Notes under the pieces: model-generated
The model's input: only the letters and a program-made list of their open reading frames with translations
Databases searched by the model: none
Told to the model about the DNA's origin: nothing
Part shown: one piece after another, positions 3,293 to 13,544 of the stretch
Position numbering within the stretch: position 1 is the stretch's first letter
Layout of the letters: the number at the start of each line of letters is the position of its first letter
Translations under genes and position numbers: made by a program
DNA from: Methanothrix sp.
GTDB taxonomy: Archaea > Halobacteriota > Methanosarcinia > Methanotrichales > Methanotrichaceae
Direction: 5' to 3'
Assembly (NCBI GenBank): GCA_026394475.1
Contig: JAPKYD010000084.1
Span: forward strand, 1 to 43,712
DNA length: 43,712 nucleotides

Positions 3293-3535
3293 TCAGAGGC
3301 CGAAGCGCAGGAAATGGAGCAAGATCACCAGAAAGGCGCCCAAGACTCCTCCGATGCCGCAGATCAGTATGACCAGCCAGCTGTAGCCGATTCCCATCCC
3401 TGCTATGGAGTTGGCGATGAAGAGAATCACCAGCCCGACTACGGCATTGATGATGAAATTCTTGATGGATTTGAGGATCAAGAACGCCCCGAAGACTATC
3501 ACTATAAGTAATATTATAAGTCCCAGCTCAATCAT
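3293..3535 (-). CDS. Small membrane protein, BofA-like family
   Basis: 80 aa, hydrophobic; LKSIKNFIINAVVGLVILFIANSIAG pattern typical of pro-sigmaK-processing-inhibitor BofA-like proteins found in archaea. Confidence 0.65.
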   Translation of the reverse strand: MIELGLIILLIVIVFGAFLILKSIKNFIINAVVGLVILFIANSIAGMGIGYSWLVILICGIGGVLGAFLVILLHFLRFGL

Positions 3536-3559: not shown

Positions 3560-6500
3560 TTAAAAAGTTTGCTTTTGAATTTCGAGGGGTTCGAGCTCGC
3601 TCGCCAAGCGGTGCCGCTCTTTTGTGTCCAGGGAGAGCGGATCGATGTGCACCAGCATTATGGCATTCTTCAAGGCTATCTCATCCCTCTGGGACTGAAT
3701 AAACCTCAGAACCGTCTCGTAGTTGCTCTGGGTTATGAGATACCCCAGGCCCTCCAGCAGAATGACGGGATAGTTCGACTTCTCCAGGAAATCGGAGATC
3801 ATGCTGCTCATGCGGGGGAAGTTCGTCGGATCCACGGTCCTGTGTCCCGGCTCGCTCTTCTGTGTCAGCCAGACGACGGTCTTCACAGGAACGTTATATC
3901 TCTCATTAAGGGTCTCAGGGTTGTACCTGCTTATGCAAAGCCCATCCATTCCGTGGCCCACCAGCTCGCTGAAGAGTTCCAGGCTTTGTTGCGGCTTCTC
4001 CTCCTCCAGGACATAAGTGGTTCCCGGAAGGAGGGCGATCTCATAAGGGCTTCTGCCGTAGCTCTTCATTAGCTCTGCCACGGAAGATGTGAAATCGAAG
4101 GCAGGGTCGTGCTTCTTTATGATCCTGGCCAGCCTCCTTATAGCCAGGAAGAAGGCACGTCGTGTCAAGACCAGACCCGGCTCGATCTGCAGCCACTGCT
4201 TGGGTAGGGCGTCTCGCATGTCCGGCTCACAGGCCGCCGCGGAGGCATTGTCAGAGATCGGCTCCGCCCTGTCCGCTTCAAAGAAGCTCTTGGCGGCTAT
4301 CAGCATATTGACCTCCTCCACAACCTCTCTTCTCTGGCCTTCGCTCAGACGAGAGAGCATGGCTTCAGAGAAGATCCGGAAGAGATAGGCGGACAGGGGT
4401 CCCAGGGTGAACAACAGCTCTTTGACCTCGTTTATGCCTGCTGGCAGGCTCACTTGCAGAAACTCCGGCCTCTCCGCCAGGAGCAGGCGAGTCTTTCGGC
4501 CCAGGAGCTCCATCTGATAGACAAAGTCCAGAATCTCTCTCTCCGGCAACACCTCGGCATTCTCTTTGACCAGCTGCTCTATGCTGTCTATGAGCACTAT
4601 GCTGTTATGGCTGGACTCCACAAAGGACTTGATGGTCATGAATAGGAGCGGTAAGTTTCGAGGCGAGATGTAACGGTCGCTGCCCTTTTCATCGCTCAAT
4701 TTGATGATAGGCGTCTCCTTGAAGCCCCACCTTCTTCGCACCTCCTCCGAAGCAAAGTGAGTGATGCACAGCCCCTCTATTCCGTGCGTGATCTGATCAG
4801 TGAAAACCTCGTAGGCCTTCTCGGGCACGACATAGATCTTCCCCATATCTAAATCATAGGTGGGAAGAGTGGCTTGTGCCGCTTCCATCACGGGCTTAAC
4901 CGGCACCTGGTCTTCCACGATCATCCTCGTGGCTGATGGTCCCACGGAGCCGGTGAGAGTCTTCTCGAACTGGCTCCATAGCTCAAGAAGCTGCCGCGCC
5001 TCAATCTTTTCTCTGCTGGTGCCGAGGCGCGTCAGATCGGCATCGACCTGCTGCTTTGCCCTCTCCTCGCCGATGTAGCGTGCCAGGGTTGCCTCCAGCT
5101 CCTCCACCGTACCCAGGTGAATTGCTCCTCGGTCGAGCTTCACAGGCTCGCCTTTTTCTTGATAAACGTCAACGAAGCGGTCGGTTATAGCCTCCTCTTC
5201 AGGGCTGGGCTTGGACAGGAGGGATACAAGAACATACAGGCTGCAGTTGACCAATAGGGTCCAGAAGACGGAGTTGGTCCAGATGTCCAGATCCAGGCCA
5301 AATAGATCCGTGGGCTTGAGGAAGGGTATGCCGAAAGGTCCATTCTTGACCAGATTTCCCAGCAGGCCATTGTCTTCAGCCACCGTGGGGATGAGGGCGG
5401 TGTAGGTCCAGAGCAGGAAGCCGGAGATCAGGCCCGCCATGGCCCCTTTCCTGCTGCCTCTCTTCCAGTAAAGACCGCCCAAGGCGGCAGGTGCCAGCTG
5501 GCTGGCCGCCAGAAAGGAGACCACTCCAATCTCTGCCAGTATCTGATAAGCCACAGCTCGCGAGTAGAGATACCCCAGGAACACCACCAGAAGGATGTTT
5601 AGCCGCCTCATATTGAGGATCGTGTTTGCCAGATTTCTGCCTGGCCCAATGCGGCTCAGAAGATAGGGCATCTCCAGGTCGTTCTGCAGCATAGTCCCTA
5701 CAGCTACGGATTCCACAAGGATCATGGCGGTGGCTGCCGATGTTCCGCCGATAAAGACGAATAGCGCAAGCCAATCCAGACCTCTGGAGTAAGGAATGGT
5801 TATTATGAAGGCATCTTTGAGCCCTGGTGTGTTCAGAAGCAGTCCGCCCCAGGCGATGGCCGGAACGAATATGTTGATCAATAGAAGATAGAGTGGAAAG
5901 AGCCACATCGCCTTCTTGAGATGATTCTCCTCCGAGTTCTCCACCGCTATAACGTGAAACTGCCTGGGAAGGAAGAGGACGGCGAAGAAAGAGATTAATG
6001 TCAGAGAGAACCAGGGGACATACTCCACATCCATGACCTCTGCATAATCCGGATTGGTGGTTGCCAAACGAGACAGCTCTTCTGTTATATTTCCATATCC
6101 CCCGAAGATGCCATAGGTGACATAGACTCCCGCTGCCAAGAAGGCCACGATCTTCACCAGGGATTCAAAGGCTACCACGGCCACCAGGCCTTCATGGCGC
6201 TCCATGGGATCGAGATGTCTCGCGCCGAAGATGACCGCGAAGGCTCCCAAAAGGAGGGCAACCACCAGCTTGCTCTCCACCGGGAATCCCAGGAATAGGT
6301 GCGGGCCGCTCAGGATTTCAAGAGACGTGGATATGGCTATGAGCTGCAGCGCCACATAAGGAGTGACCATGACCAGGCTCAGTACTGCCACTATGGCACC
6401 GATGGCGTAGCTTCTCCCATAGCGGAAGCTGATGAAGTCGCTCACAGAAGTCAGCCTGAACTCCTTCGAGACCCGTATCATCTTTCGGATGACGATCCAG

Positions 6501-6748
6501 CCCAAAGTCATGGCCAAGGTGGGCCCGAGGTAAATGGGCAGGAACTCAAGGCCGGTGGATGCAGCCCTTCCAATGGAGCCGTAAAACGTCCAGGCGGAGA
6601 CATAGACGCACAAAGACAGAGCGTAGACATAAGGGTTGGCGACGATGCTTCTGCCCAAGTGCTTCTGGCGGTCGGCATACGAAGCTATGCCGAAGAGCAG
6701 GAGCAGGTAGAGGACCATGACGATGAGGGCGACATGCGATTCTATCAA
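3560..6748 (-). CDS. SLC5-type sodium:solute symporter domain fused to STAC-like linker and two DUF835 domains (sensor-like protein)
   Basis: ~12-TM SSS domain (VYALSLCVYVSAWTFYGSIGRAASTGLEFLPIYLGPTLAM...), linker LEATLARYIGEERAKQQ as in CbrA-type SSS sensors, two C-terminal DUF835-like repeats (YVVPEKAYEVFTDQITHGIEGLCITHF...; YVLEEEKPQQSLELFSELVGHGMDGLCISRY...). Start reassigned to TTG 6748 (GGAGG upstream, TTGA overlap with the previous stop); track ORF runs to 6889. Confidence 0.8.
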   Translation of the reverse strand: MIESHVALIVMVLYLLLLFGIASYADRQKHLGRSIVANPYVYALSLCVYVSAWTFYGSIGRAASTGLEFLPIYLGPTLAMTLGWIVIRKMIRVSKEFRLTSVSDFISFRYGRSYAIGAIVAVLSLVMVTPYVALQLIAISTSLEILSGPHLFLGFPVESKLVVALLLGAFAVIFGARHLDPMERHEGLVAVVAFESLVKIVAFLAAGVYVTYGIFGGYGNITEELSRLATTNPDYAEVMDVEYVPWFSLTLISFFAVLFLPRQFHVIAVENSEENHLKKAMWLFPLYLLLINIFVPAIAWGGLLLNTPGLKDAFIITIPYSRGLDWLALFVFIGGTSAATAMILVESVAVGTMLQNDLEMPYLLSRIGPGRNLANTILNMRRLNILLVVFLGYLYSRAVAYQILAEIGVVSFLAASQLAPAALGGLYWKRGSRKGAMAGLISGFLLWTYTALIPTVAEDNGLLGNLVKNGPFGIPFLKPTDLFGLDLDIWTNSVFWTLLVNCSLYVLVSLLSKPSPEEEAITDRFVDVYQEKGEPVKLDRGAIHLGTVEELEATLARYIGEERAKQQVDADLTRLGTSREKIEARQLLELWSQFEKTLTGSVGPSATRMIVEDQVPVKPVMEAAQATLPTYDLDMGKIYVVPEKAYEVFTDQITHGIEGLCITHFASEEVRRRWGFKETPIIKLSDEKGSDRYISPRNLPLLFMTIKSFVESSHNSIVLIDSIEQLVKENAEVLPEREILDFVYQMELLGRKTRLLLAERPEFLQVSLPAGINEVKELLFTLGPLSAYLFRIFSEAMLSRLSEGQRREVVEEVNMLIAAKSFFEADRAEPISDNASAAACEPDMRDALPKQWLQIEPGLVLTRRAFFLAIRRLARIIKKHDPAFDFTSSVAELMKSYGRSPYEIALLPGTTYVLEEEKPQQSLELFSELVGHGMDGLCISRYNPETLNERYNVPVKTVVWLTQKSEPGHRTVDPTNFPRMSSMISDFLEKSNYPVILLEGLGYLITQSNYETVLRFIQSQRDEIALKNAIMLVHIDPLSLDTKERHRLASELEPLEIQKQTF

Positions 6749-6954
6749 CCAGAATTCCTCCGGTCGAAGAGATACAAGACCAGAATTATCATCAGCCAGA
6801 TCAAAGCTATATAAACCAATATCGCAGGTATGCCCATCACGGAGTATCCGACGGTCAGAGTGAGCATGGGCCAGTTGAAAAGCACCCAACCTAGAATGAA
6901 GAGGAATGCCCAGAATTCGTTCTGCAAAAGGAGATCCTTGAAGGAGAGCGCCAT
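6745..6954 (-). CDS. Small (69 aa) integral membrane protein, probable partner of the SSS protein
   Basis: Two predicted TM segments; stop codon overlaps SSS start (TTGA). Confidence 0.75.
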   Translation of the reverse strand: MALSFKDLLLQNEFWAFLFILGWVLFNWPMLTLTVGYSVMGIPAILVYIALIWLMIILVLYLFDRRNSG

Positions 6955-6956
6955 GG

Positions 6957-7634
6957 CTACAGACCCGGATAGACTGTCAATCCCTTAACGGATATATCTA
7001 CTGCATACTTTCCCAAATGGTGAGATGTGCCGCACATCTTCAGAATCTCGATGGACCGCCTCCTTACTAAATTTATCTCTTCATTTTGCAGTAATATGAT
7101 TCCGTCTGCGACATGCGCTATCTCCGCGGGATAGGGCGCTCTGGGCAGGGCATCGCCAGTTACCAGGGCCACCGCTTTTTGTGCTTTGACCAGGTGAGAT
7201 AGCTTGAGGAGAAATCGCCGGTAGTTGCCCTTGAACACTTGTTTAAGGTCAGACAGATTCTCAATGACGATGCGCTTGGCACCGAACTTTTCTATCTCCT
7301 CCTGGATCGCATCCAGAACATCTTCTGCCCGCCCGGCCCTTTCCACTTTATCCTCCAGCTCGATATAACAGATCTCCTTTCCCAAGTACTTTCTCTTCAC
7401 AAAATCGTAGGTAGAGACAAACTTGAATAAAGAATCAAGCGGTCCGCCAAAGGTCAGGAAATAAAGCCCGGGCTCGCCCAGATCCGCTCCTTTGCAGAGA
7501 AACTGAGTGCAGAAGGTGGTCTTGCCAGCACCAGCGTCTCCGGCCACGAGGGTCAGGGAGGGCACAGGAAGGCCGCCCCCGATCATCTCATCCAGTCCTG
7601 GTATTCCGGTGGGCATCCTTTCAAGGGAACTCAA
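6957..7634 (-). CDS. KaiC-like / RAD55-family RecA-superfamily ATPase
   Basis: PTGIPGLDEMIGGGLPVPSLTLVAGDAGAGKTTFCTQFLCKGA; KaiC-domain architecture. Confidence 0.9.
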   Translation of the reverse strand: MSSLERMPTGIPGLDEMIGGGLPVPSLTLVAGDAGAGKTTFCTQFLCKGADLGEPGLYFLTFGGPLDSLFKFVSTYDFVKRKYLGKEICYIELEDKVERAGRAEDVLDAIQEEIEKFGAKRIVIENLSDLKQVFKGNYRRFLLKLSHLVKAQKAVALVTGDALPRAPYPAEIAHVADGIILLQNEEINLVRRRSIEILKMCGTSHHLGKYAVDISVKGLTVYPGL

Positions 7635-11315: not shown

Positions 11316-11606
11316 ATGAGCGCCATCTTTGGAGAGCTTCTGACCTTCTCTCAGGAGAAGGGTCCCGATGTACGCCTGAGGGTCTACGGAGACGAGTTCT
11401 ATGCGCGCTACGAGACTGCGGATGGCTACTCCGTCATATACGACCTATCCCTGGGTCGTTTTGTCTACGCTCTGCTTCGAGATGGCCACTTCATCTCCAG
11501 CGACGTGGACCTCTCCATGGGTCCGCCTCCCGGAGTCTCGCCTCATCTTGAGGAATCGGATGAGACTCGAAGCGCAAAGGCTGAGAATAGGTTTTCCAGA
11601 AGATGA
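11316..11606 (+). pseudogene. Partial duplicate of the N-terminal domain of the downstream M6-type protease
   Basis: MSAIFGELLTFSQEKGPDVRLRVYGDEFYARYETADGYSVIYD aligns with MSSIFAEVLTFHQENGPEVRLRVYGDEFYARYEDLDGYTVVYD of the next gene; stops at a position equivalent to ~residue 97 of the paralogue. Confidence 0.75.
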
Positions 11607-11690: not shown

Positions 11691-13544
11691 ATGAGTTCGA
11701 TATTTGCAGAGGTCTTGACATTCCATCAGGAGAATGGACCAGAAGTGAGATTGCGGGTCTATGGCGATGAGTTTTATGCCCGCTATGAGGATCTTGATGG
11801 TTACACTGTGGTTTATGATCCGGATCAGGGATTGTACTGCTACGCCCTATTGATTCGAGGCGAGTTCGTCTCCAGCGGTGTGGATATCAGCCAGACTCCT
11901 CCTTTGGGAGCGAGGCGTCACTTCAAAGAGGGGGAAGAGGTTCGCAACTACAAGTTTGAGAATAGATTTGCCAAAATGAATCCTCCTGCCGTATCTTATA
12001 AGCCCAATCTGAACTTTCGGACCTTCGGGCCTGAGAAAGGGCTGATGGAGGGACGCCGCGTCAGCGAGGGCGAGATCAAGGGTCTGACGGTTCTGGTCCA
12101 GTTCCAGGACCAGAAGAGCACTGTCACGCCCGAGGACGTGGACGCCATGCTCAACGGTAGGAACTACCACGATAATGGGAACTTCTGCTCCGCGCGGGAA
12201 TATTTCCAGCTCATGTCCAGCGGCAAGCTGGACTATACCAACGTGGTGGTGGGACCAGTAACGCTGAGCCGCAAGCTTCAATACTACACTCAAAACCTTC
12301 TTGTGAAGGAGGCTCTGGACCTGGCCGTCAAGGGCGGGGTCGATCTCAAGCAGTTTGACTCGCGAGGCGACGGTGTAGTCGATGCCATGAGCTTCCTTTA
12401 CGCCGGTCAGACTCAGTATTTGGGAGAGCTATGGCCTCACAACTACTTCATAGATCTGCAGTACGCAGATATGAGGACCTACTTCTACATGCTCTCCAGC
12501 ATGGGCCGCAGCAAAGAGGACCTGAGCATTGGAACCTTCTGCCACGAGAGCGGCCACATGCTCTGTCGCTGGCCGGACCTCTACGATTACGGGAACCGGG
12601 ACGGCGATTTCGAGAAGAGTGCAGGTCTTGGTTATTACTGCCTGATGAGCGCAGGAAACCATAACGACAACGGACGAACACCTTCGCCTGTCTGCGCCTA
12701 TCTGAGGAACCTGGTGGGATGGTGCGACAGAGTAGTCCGGCTTAACACGCCCGGCCAGTACCAGACGGATCATGGAGATTATGGGACGGTGATGATATAC
12801 GAGACCGGGAAGATAAATGAGTATTTCCTGGTGGAGAACAGATCTCAGGTCGATCTTGATGCCAGCATCCCCTCTAGCGGCCTGGCTGTCTACCATTGCG
12901 ACACCCTGGGCTCGAACGAGTGGCAGGGCGGCACTCCTTCCAGGCACTACCAGTGCGGGCTGCTTCAGGCAGACGGCAGCCTCGATCTGGAGACCAATCG
13001 CAGCATGGGGGATGAGAAGGACCTCTTTGGCCGCGTGGAGGGGACGGCCCTCAGCCACGCCACCAGGCCGGCCTCGAACCTCTGGGACGGATCGGATTCC
13101 GGCCTGATGATCTCGAATATTCTCTCTCCCGGCAAGGTCGTAACCTTCGCGGCAGGTCAGGCGCTGATGGACCATGTGGTAAAGGAGACCTCGTCACCTG
13201 GGGTGGCCATACCTGACAACAATGCCCAGGGCCTGAGCGATGTTATTCAGATCTCTCTGGAGGGCAAGGTGGCAAAGCTGAAGGTGAGGGTGGACATAAG
13301 CCACAGCAACATAGCCAATTTGAGGGTGGAGCTATTGTCTCCAGGCGGCAAGAGGGCTATCCTGCACAATCGCACCGGCCTTGGCAAGAAGAATCTGAAA
13401 AAGACCTACGACTCCAAGTCCTCGGCCGCTCTTACCGCCTTTATCGGCCAGTCCCTGAAGGGCAATTGGACCCTCAAGATCAAGGATTTGGTGGGTAGGG
13501 ATGTGGGTAAGCTGAACACCTGGAGCCTGGAGGTCGCCTACTGA
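11691..13544 (+). CDS. M6-family (immune-inhibitor-A-like) metalloprotease with C-terminal P/homB-like domain
   Basis: Zinc motif HESGHMLCRWPDLYDYG; N-terminal GDEFYARYEDLDGYTVVYD; C-term ISHSNIANLRVELLSPGGKRAILHNRTG...GQSLKGNWTLKIKDLVGRDVGKLNTWSLEV is P-domain-like; no obvious signal peptide. Confidence 0.85.
   Translation: MSSIFAEVLTFHQENGPEVRLRVYGDEFYARYEDLDGYTVVYDPDQGLYCYALLIRGEFVSSGVDISQTPPLGARRHFKEGEEVRNYKFENRFAKMNPPAVSYKPNLNFRTFGPEKGLMEGRRVSEGEIKGLTVLVQFQDQKSTVTPEDVDAMLNGRNYHDNGNFCSAREYFQLMSSGKLDYTNVVVGPVTLSRKLQYYTQNLLVKEALDLAVKGGVDLKQFDSRGDGVVDAMSFLYAGQTQYLGELWPHNYFIDLQYADMRTYFYMLSSMGRSKEDLSIGTFCHESGHMLCRWPDLYDYGNRDGDFEKSAGLGYYCLMSAGNHNDNGRTPSPVCAYLRNLVGWCDRVVRLNTPGQYQTDHGDYGTVMIYETGKINEYFLVENRSQVDLDASIPSSGLAVYHCDTLGSNEWQGGTPSRHYQCGLLQADGSLDLETNRSMGDEKDLFGRVEGTALSHATRPASNLWDGSDSGLMISNILSPGKVVTFAAGQALMDHVVKETSSPGVAIPDNNAQGLSDVIQISLEGKVAKLKVRVDISHSNIANLRVELLSPGGKRAILHNRTGLGKKNLKKTYDSKSSAALTAFIGQSLKGNWTLKIKDLVGRDVGKLNTWSLEVAY

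Follow-up and report, generated by a model that had tools for sequence, protein, structure and literature searches.

The closest described relatives of the locus reported here are bacterial receptors in which an SLC5 transporter domain is joined to a STAC domain, among them CrbS, which controls acetyl-CoA synthetase (acs) (PMC5715377), and CbrA, on whose SLC5 domain the partner CbrX sits as a hairpin of two helices (PMC13022988). STAC-containing signalling proteins were stated to be absent from archaea in a paper building on the original STAC study (PMC5715377), and a later review mentions predicted kinases with a sodium/solute symporter (SSS) domain in some archaea, giving Candidatus Nitrosocaldus as an example (PMC7918813). 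We analysed a 43,712-nucleotide stretch of DNA from Methanothrix sp. (GCA_026394475.1, contig JAPKYD010000084.1, positions 1-43,712; hereafter the window) in which a locus with all of its genes on the minus strand encodes a 1062-amino acid protein (3560-6748) composed of an SLC5 domain, a STAC domain and two consecutive DUF835 domains. The reading that we favour, with moderate confidence, is that this protein is an SLC5/STAC transceptor in which the histidine kinase has been swapped for two inactive KaiC-like (DUF835) domains that would signal to KaiC-family ATPases, probably in response to a carboxylate.

The membrane half of the large protein provides the clearest link to the bacterial receptors. 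The protein scores above the Pfam cut-off for SSF, and a profile built from 30 orthologs and searched with hmmsearch against the chains of the PDB matched one solved chain, 10ed_A (e-value = 4e-106, positions 7-613). This is a cryo-EM chain labelled 'histidine kinase', whose sequence features lead us to equate it with the CbrA structure of PMC13022988. The match spans the whole SLC5 and STAC part, assigning the SLC5 domain (5216-6745) to the STAC-associated type with 13 transmembrane segments, and the domain also shows a fold match to the LeuT-fold transporters SGLT, NIS and CHT1. In tblastn searches of plasmid records, the SLC5-STAC region aligned with Paracoccus histidine kinases at about 47% identity over 95% of the query (e-value of about 1e-120). 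Directly after the SLC5 domain lies the STAC domain (4910-5113; IGEERA ... TGSVGPSATR), and a profile made from this domain alone had the STAC of 10ed_A as its top match in the PDB (e-value = 1.2e-4). Lysine 199 of the SLC5 domain corresponds to K196 of CbrA, the proton-coupling lysine that takes the place of sodium in the Na2 site (PMC13022988), and is invariant in the archaeal and bacterial sequences. The CbrA pocket residues Y51, W55, F71, Y75 and F406 are likewise conserved and S53 is either S or T, with A56 changed to T and, on a single alignment, F248 changed to S. These data argue strongly that the large protein belongs to the SLC5/STAC receptor family. A sequence-only reading of this DNA had likened the protein to CbrA by its layout, with a STAC-like linker and two DUF835 domains in place of a kinase. 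The likeness proves to be one of true homology, given the match to 10ed_A and the identity to sensor kinases of that type, and the linker is a genuine STAC domain. A Pfam scan of the large protein found no HisKA or HATPase domain that could form a kinase output (PAS/DHp/CA), and the assignment to DUF835 (PF05763) held for both copies, each exceeding the Pfam gathering cut-off (whole-protein e-value = 5.4e-50). As a separate observation on this receptor family, an SLC5/STAC protein on an Azoarcus plasmid (L037:3950-7141) is annotated with an EAL domain, a bacterial swap of output.

DUF835 is listed as an inactivated KaiC in a published survey (PMC5847659), and the two copies in the large protein fit this description. 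The first (4421-4858, with the Pfam match at 4559-4822) and the second (3593-4000, Pfam e-value = 4.1e-37) are homologous to each other (hhalign, 98.8%), and the second also matches the FlaH profile (e-value = 6e-5). A model of the C-terminal half (predicted local distance difference test score of 84.9, predicted template modelling score, pTM, of 0.81) was searched with Foldseek, and RecA and KaiC structures dominated the matches (e-values to 4e-7, probability 1.00). A deeper hhalign comparison of DUF835 with KaiC aligned the two in the correct register and adds weak support (e-value = 3.5e-4). No Walker A motif was found at the P-loop position of DUF835 in any of 30 sequences; the one chance match lay in the C-terminal tail. 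The models thus support DUF835 as a KaiC/RecA-like fold that lacks a P-loop (iKaiC), and because it lacks one these domains should not act as ATPases. The second domain, with a mean column identity of 83%, is more conserved than both the first domain and the protein average, and its near-invariant YLITQSNYETVLRF block is likely to be a contact surface.

The transceptor gene is present in every reasonably complete Methanotrichaceae genome. Our SLC5/STAC query was positive in 47 of 50 genomes of this family, nearly always as a single copy. The three negative genomes are assemblies only 58-78% complete, and a whole-protein search found pieces of the gene in them. The full domain architecture is retained in every genome with an intact gene. 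By contrast with the family, no match at an e-value ≤ 1e-50, a threshold reached by nearly all bacterial SLC5/STAC homologs among the matches listed, was found in 188 other genomes of the class or in 379 other sampled genomes of the phylum. The named records among the matches listed belong to Methanotrichaceae and bacteria only, and in a phylogenetic tree the archaeal sequences are monophyletic (support 98), with CbrA on a distant branch. Within this sample of class and phylum, the pattern suggests a single transfer into the ancestor of the Methanotrichaceae, with bacteria as the likely donors. The module was then probably fused, in that ancestor, to output domains of the archaeal KaiC type. 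The passages that we consulted from papers on Methanothrix transport and metabolism do not mention the protein.

Immediately upstream of the transceptor gene is a gene for a 69-amino acid membrane protein with two predicted helices and an FNWP motif (6745-6954). This protein is conserved across all relatives examined, and it had no match in Pfam, NCBIfam or PDB sequence searches, so its identity comes from bacterial gene neighbours and not from library matches. Most bacterial SLC5/STAC genes are preceded directly by a small hydrophobic open reading frame (ORF) that carries an (F/L)N(F/Y/W)P-like motif, and a profile built from the archaeal proteins only matched the upstream frame at 78 of 90 bacterial SLC5/STAC loci and no shuffled sequences. 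In the control for matches elsewhere, the profile hit 19 sequences, of which 18 were the same ORF uncut and one also resembles the small-partner family. An upstream two-helix partner, common though not universal in the receptor family, is therefore present here as well, and the profile matches indicate that the archaeal protein is homologous to the bacterial one. Likened to CbrX by position, and not by comparison with the CbrX sequence, it may play a CbrX-like role.

The organisation of the locus is tight. A KaiC-like ATPase gene (6957-7634) ends 2 nucleotides before the small gene, and the small and large genes share a TTGA stop/start overlap (6745-6748) that indicates their translational coupling. 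The sequence-only reading had described this linkage of three genes, and its coordinates, strand, gap and overlap are all exactly right. A longer, 1109-amino acid form of the large protein in the ORF list, starting from a TTG at 6889, was rejected; its N-terminal extension is interrupted by stops in most relatives, and 25 of 29 relatives have an in-frame start at the overlapping NTGA, so we take the protein to be 1062 amino acids long. Absent from the earlier gene list is a gene for an 80-amino acid BofA-like membrane protein (3293-3535, Pfam BofA e-value = 4.1e-9), which lies 24 nucleotides downstream of the transceptor gene and is conserved there in 27 relatives. The small and large genes occur together in all examined relatives whose contig extends far enough, and kaiC is present at the locus in 21 of about 29 loci where this could be checked. 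Gene conservation at the locus is far above chance, and the conserved unit consists of the small gene and the large gene (with bofA), without kaiC as a strict member.

The adjacent kaiC gene encodes a 225-amino acid protein with a KaiC Pfam domain (e-value = 1.8e-39) and an intact Walker A motif (GDAGAGKT). Gly-Gly stands in this protein where KaiC has its catalytic glutamate pair, and the protein would be expected to bind ATP yet be poor at hydrolysing it. Walker A is found in 19 of 21 neighbouring KaiC proteins, the other two being partial sequences. In the 19-ortholog alignment the catalytic glutamate pair after strand 2 is lost, with Gly-Gly in most of the genus Methanothrix and a single glutamate (SEPP) in several deeper lineages. 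A genome search recovered the ortholog from 29 of the 50 genomes of the family, including 19 of the 33 best, and from nine of eleven genera, a spread which suggests that kaiC is probably ancestral in the family; it is dispensable and has been lost repeatedly. One genome, G004, retains a deletion scar in which the last 16 codons of kaiC stand just upstream of the small gene (L178:3004-3051). With 29 of 50 genomes positive and this scar, linkage of kaiC to the DUF835 transceptor is not obligate, and the core of small gene, large gene and bofA persists where kaiC has been lost. The genome from which the window comes holds another DUF835 operon (L166:2264-5263, G000 contig C95), which encodes a PAS histidine kinase, a DUF835 protein with a Cys-rich insert, a PadR regulator and a KaiC-like ATPase whose Walker A is degenerate (GAEGTLKS), and kinase, DUF835 and KaiC genes also lie near one another at two other loci (L169 and L170). 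Since this second operon likewise holds a KaiC gene, a DUF835-KaiC partnership of some kind is supported.

Taken as a mechanism, the favoured reading would begin with a small carboxylate, most likely acetate, whose binding or transport would shift the conformation of the SLC5 domain. STAC would pass this change on to the tandem DUF835 domains, and these may bind ATPases of the KaiC family, which would be the KaiC of the operon in genomes that retain it and other family members elsewhere. Binding would alter the assembly or activity of the ATPase, in place of the phosphorelay of CbrA and CrbS.

Several results weigh against this reading. The triplet of kaiC, small gene and large gene, expected by the sequence-only reading to be conserved, fails as a strict unit in relatives: the kaiC ortholog has suffered repeated losses and is lacking in 21 of 50 family genomes, of which 14 are at least 90% complete and some, e.g., G004, G228 and G033, nearly complete. 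Given these absences and the 16-codon remnant, the neighbouring KaiC is not an obligatory partner everywhere. In one genus (g9) we found neither kaiC nor the second DUF835 gene; the tandem there must therefore act on something else, and no specific ATPase partner is universal. On the structural side, hhalign with shallow alignments gave a negative result for DUF835 against the operon's own KaiC. At about 0.25, the template modelling scores (TM-scores) for the DUF835 tandem as a whole are low, which means that its two domains are not arranged relative to each other as in KaiC. The model of the full-length protein has a low pTM of 0.45. As for the ligand, the case draws only on lifestyle, family membership and bacterial gene neighbours; the pocket residues do not discriminate between substrates, and F248 of CbrA is not conserved. 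Papers on CbrA argue, further, that sensing may be cytoplasmic rather than through SLC5 (PMC7918813, PMC9100948).

The same protein could instead be primarily an uptake transporter for acetate or another carboxylate, in which case the DUF835 tandem would act inwards on the transporter and gate it by the energy state of the cell. Its SLC5 domain is complete, with the proton-coupling lysine in place and most residues of the pocket conserved, the gene is nearly always single-copy in all reasonably complete genomes of these acetate specialists, and the SLC5 domain of CbrA does transport (PMC7918813). However, transport by CbrA is too little for growth (PMC13022988), a different protein, AceP/Ady2, is the proposed acetate transporter of these archaea (PMC3349665, PMC10598746), and the nearest relatives among the matches listed are receptors rather than plain transporters. 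We consider this explanation unlikely. Plain SSF genes are not enriched near the bacterial relatives (1 of 90 loci by tblastn; a Pfam tally gave 4).

A further alternative keeps the KaiC-type output and changes the ligand to a solute other than acetate, for instance an amino acid as with CbrA, which binds histidine (PMC13022988). RpuS responds to pyruvate (PMC9100948), and the core of the pocket is common to all clades, as this alternative would allow. Against it, pocket positions 56 and 248 of the archaeal sequences are unlike those of CbrA, and an acetyl-CoA synthetase-like gene lies within about 5 kb at 17 of 90 bacterial SLC5/STAC loci (about 704 kb of flanks), where one or two loci would be expected by chance on a rough estimate that is not a computed control. 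Methanotrichaceae are acetate users, and acetate is their main substrate. We therefore regard another solute as distinctly improbable, and our best guess is that the ligand of the transceptor is acetate or a similar carboxylate. Genes with an Exonuclease domain (49 of 90) and DUF294/CBS genes (38 of 90) also flank the bacterial SLC5/STAC kinases (loci L059-L136) and are commoner there than acs-like genes.

That the protein is a plain PutP-like sodium/solute symporter whose C-terminal extension means nothing and whose operon neighbours are there by chance, as the generic SSF match and a genome paper that calls the SSS proteins of the family PutP homologs (PMC10598746) might suggest, is very hard to credit beside its strong SLC5/STAC membership, a conserved C-terminal tandem whose second domain exceeds the protein average, and an architecture kept whole wherever the gene is intact.

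Elsewhere in the window, two features stand apart from this locus. On the minus strand at 45-2431, a SIR2-like gene (1295-2431) is followed by a HerA-like ATPase gene (45-1289) cut by the contig end, and PADLOC identifies the two as a SIR2-HerA anti-phage defence pair (e-values of 1.5e-128 and 1.2e-78). On the plus strand, a short ORF (11316-11606) is like the N-terminus of the next large, metalloprotease-like ORF (11691-13544) and resembles a partial tandem duplication.

Methanotrichaceae are the source of much acetate-derived biological methane, and to our knowledge it is not known how they sense their substrate. If the favoured reading is true, they would sense food by a route that is free of kinases. 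Its broadest form seems to us an even bet: that this is the first SLC5/STAC transceptor in archaea, that the Methanotrichaceae ancestor obtained it from bacteria, and that a pseudo-KaiC tandem in place of the kinase links acetate sensing at the membrane to KaiC-family ATPases. Inactive KaiC domains have been proposed to serve as outputs, and we found no demonstration of this in the literature; here an SLC5/STAC receptor and a candidate inactive-KaiC output are united in one testable polypeptide, which no reasonably complete genome of the family lacks, and the transceptor offers a tangible way into the KaiC-based signalling network that has been proposed for archaea.

Compared with known systems, the locus is most like CbrA/CbrX of Pseudomonas (PDB 10ed), with which it shares the SLC5 and STAC domains, a coupled upstream small membrane peptide and the proton-coupling lysine. 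The output of CbrA, however, is a PAS-histidine kinase acting on the response regulator CbrB, whereas the Methanothrix protein ends in two DUF835 domains. CrbS/R (acetate) and RpuS/R (pyruvate) similarly have an SLC5/STAC receptor tied to carboxylate use, with CrbS controlling acetyl-CoA synthetase expression, but these are bacterial hybrid histidine kinases with REC domains and a phosphorelay output. Archaeal DUF835/iKaiC signalling proteins (REC-DUF835, REC-PAS-PAS-DUF835) also combine an inactive KaiC-like domain with signalling domains; they take their input through a receiver or PAS domain, where the protein found here has a membrane transporter-receptor. Finally, the adjacent KaiC resembles archaeal KaiC-like ATPases (ArlH/FlaH and KaiC hubs) in its RecA fold, its intact Walker A and its gene position beside a signalling protein, but in the genus Methanothrix it is without the catalytic glutamate pair, and about 40% of the family lacks its gene.

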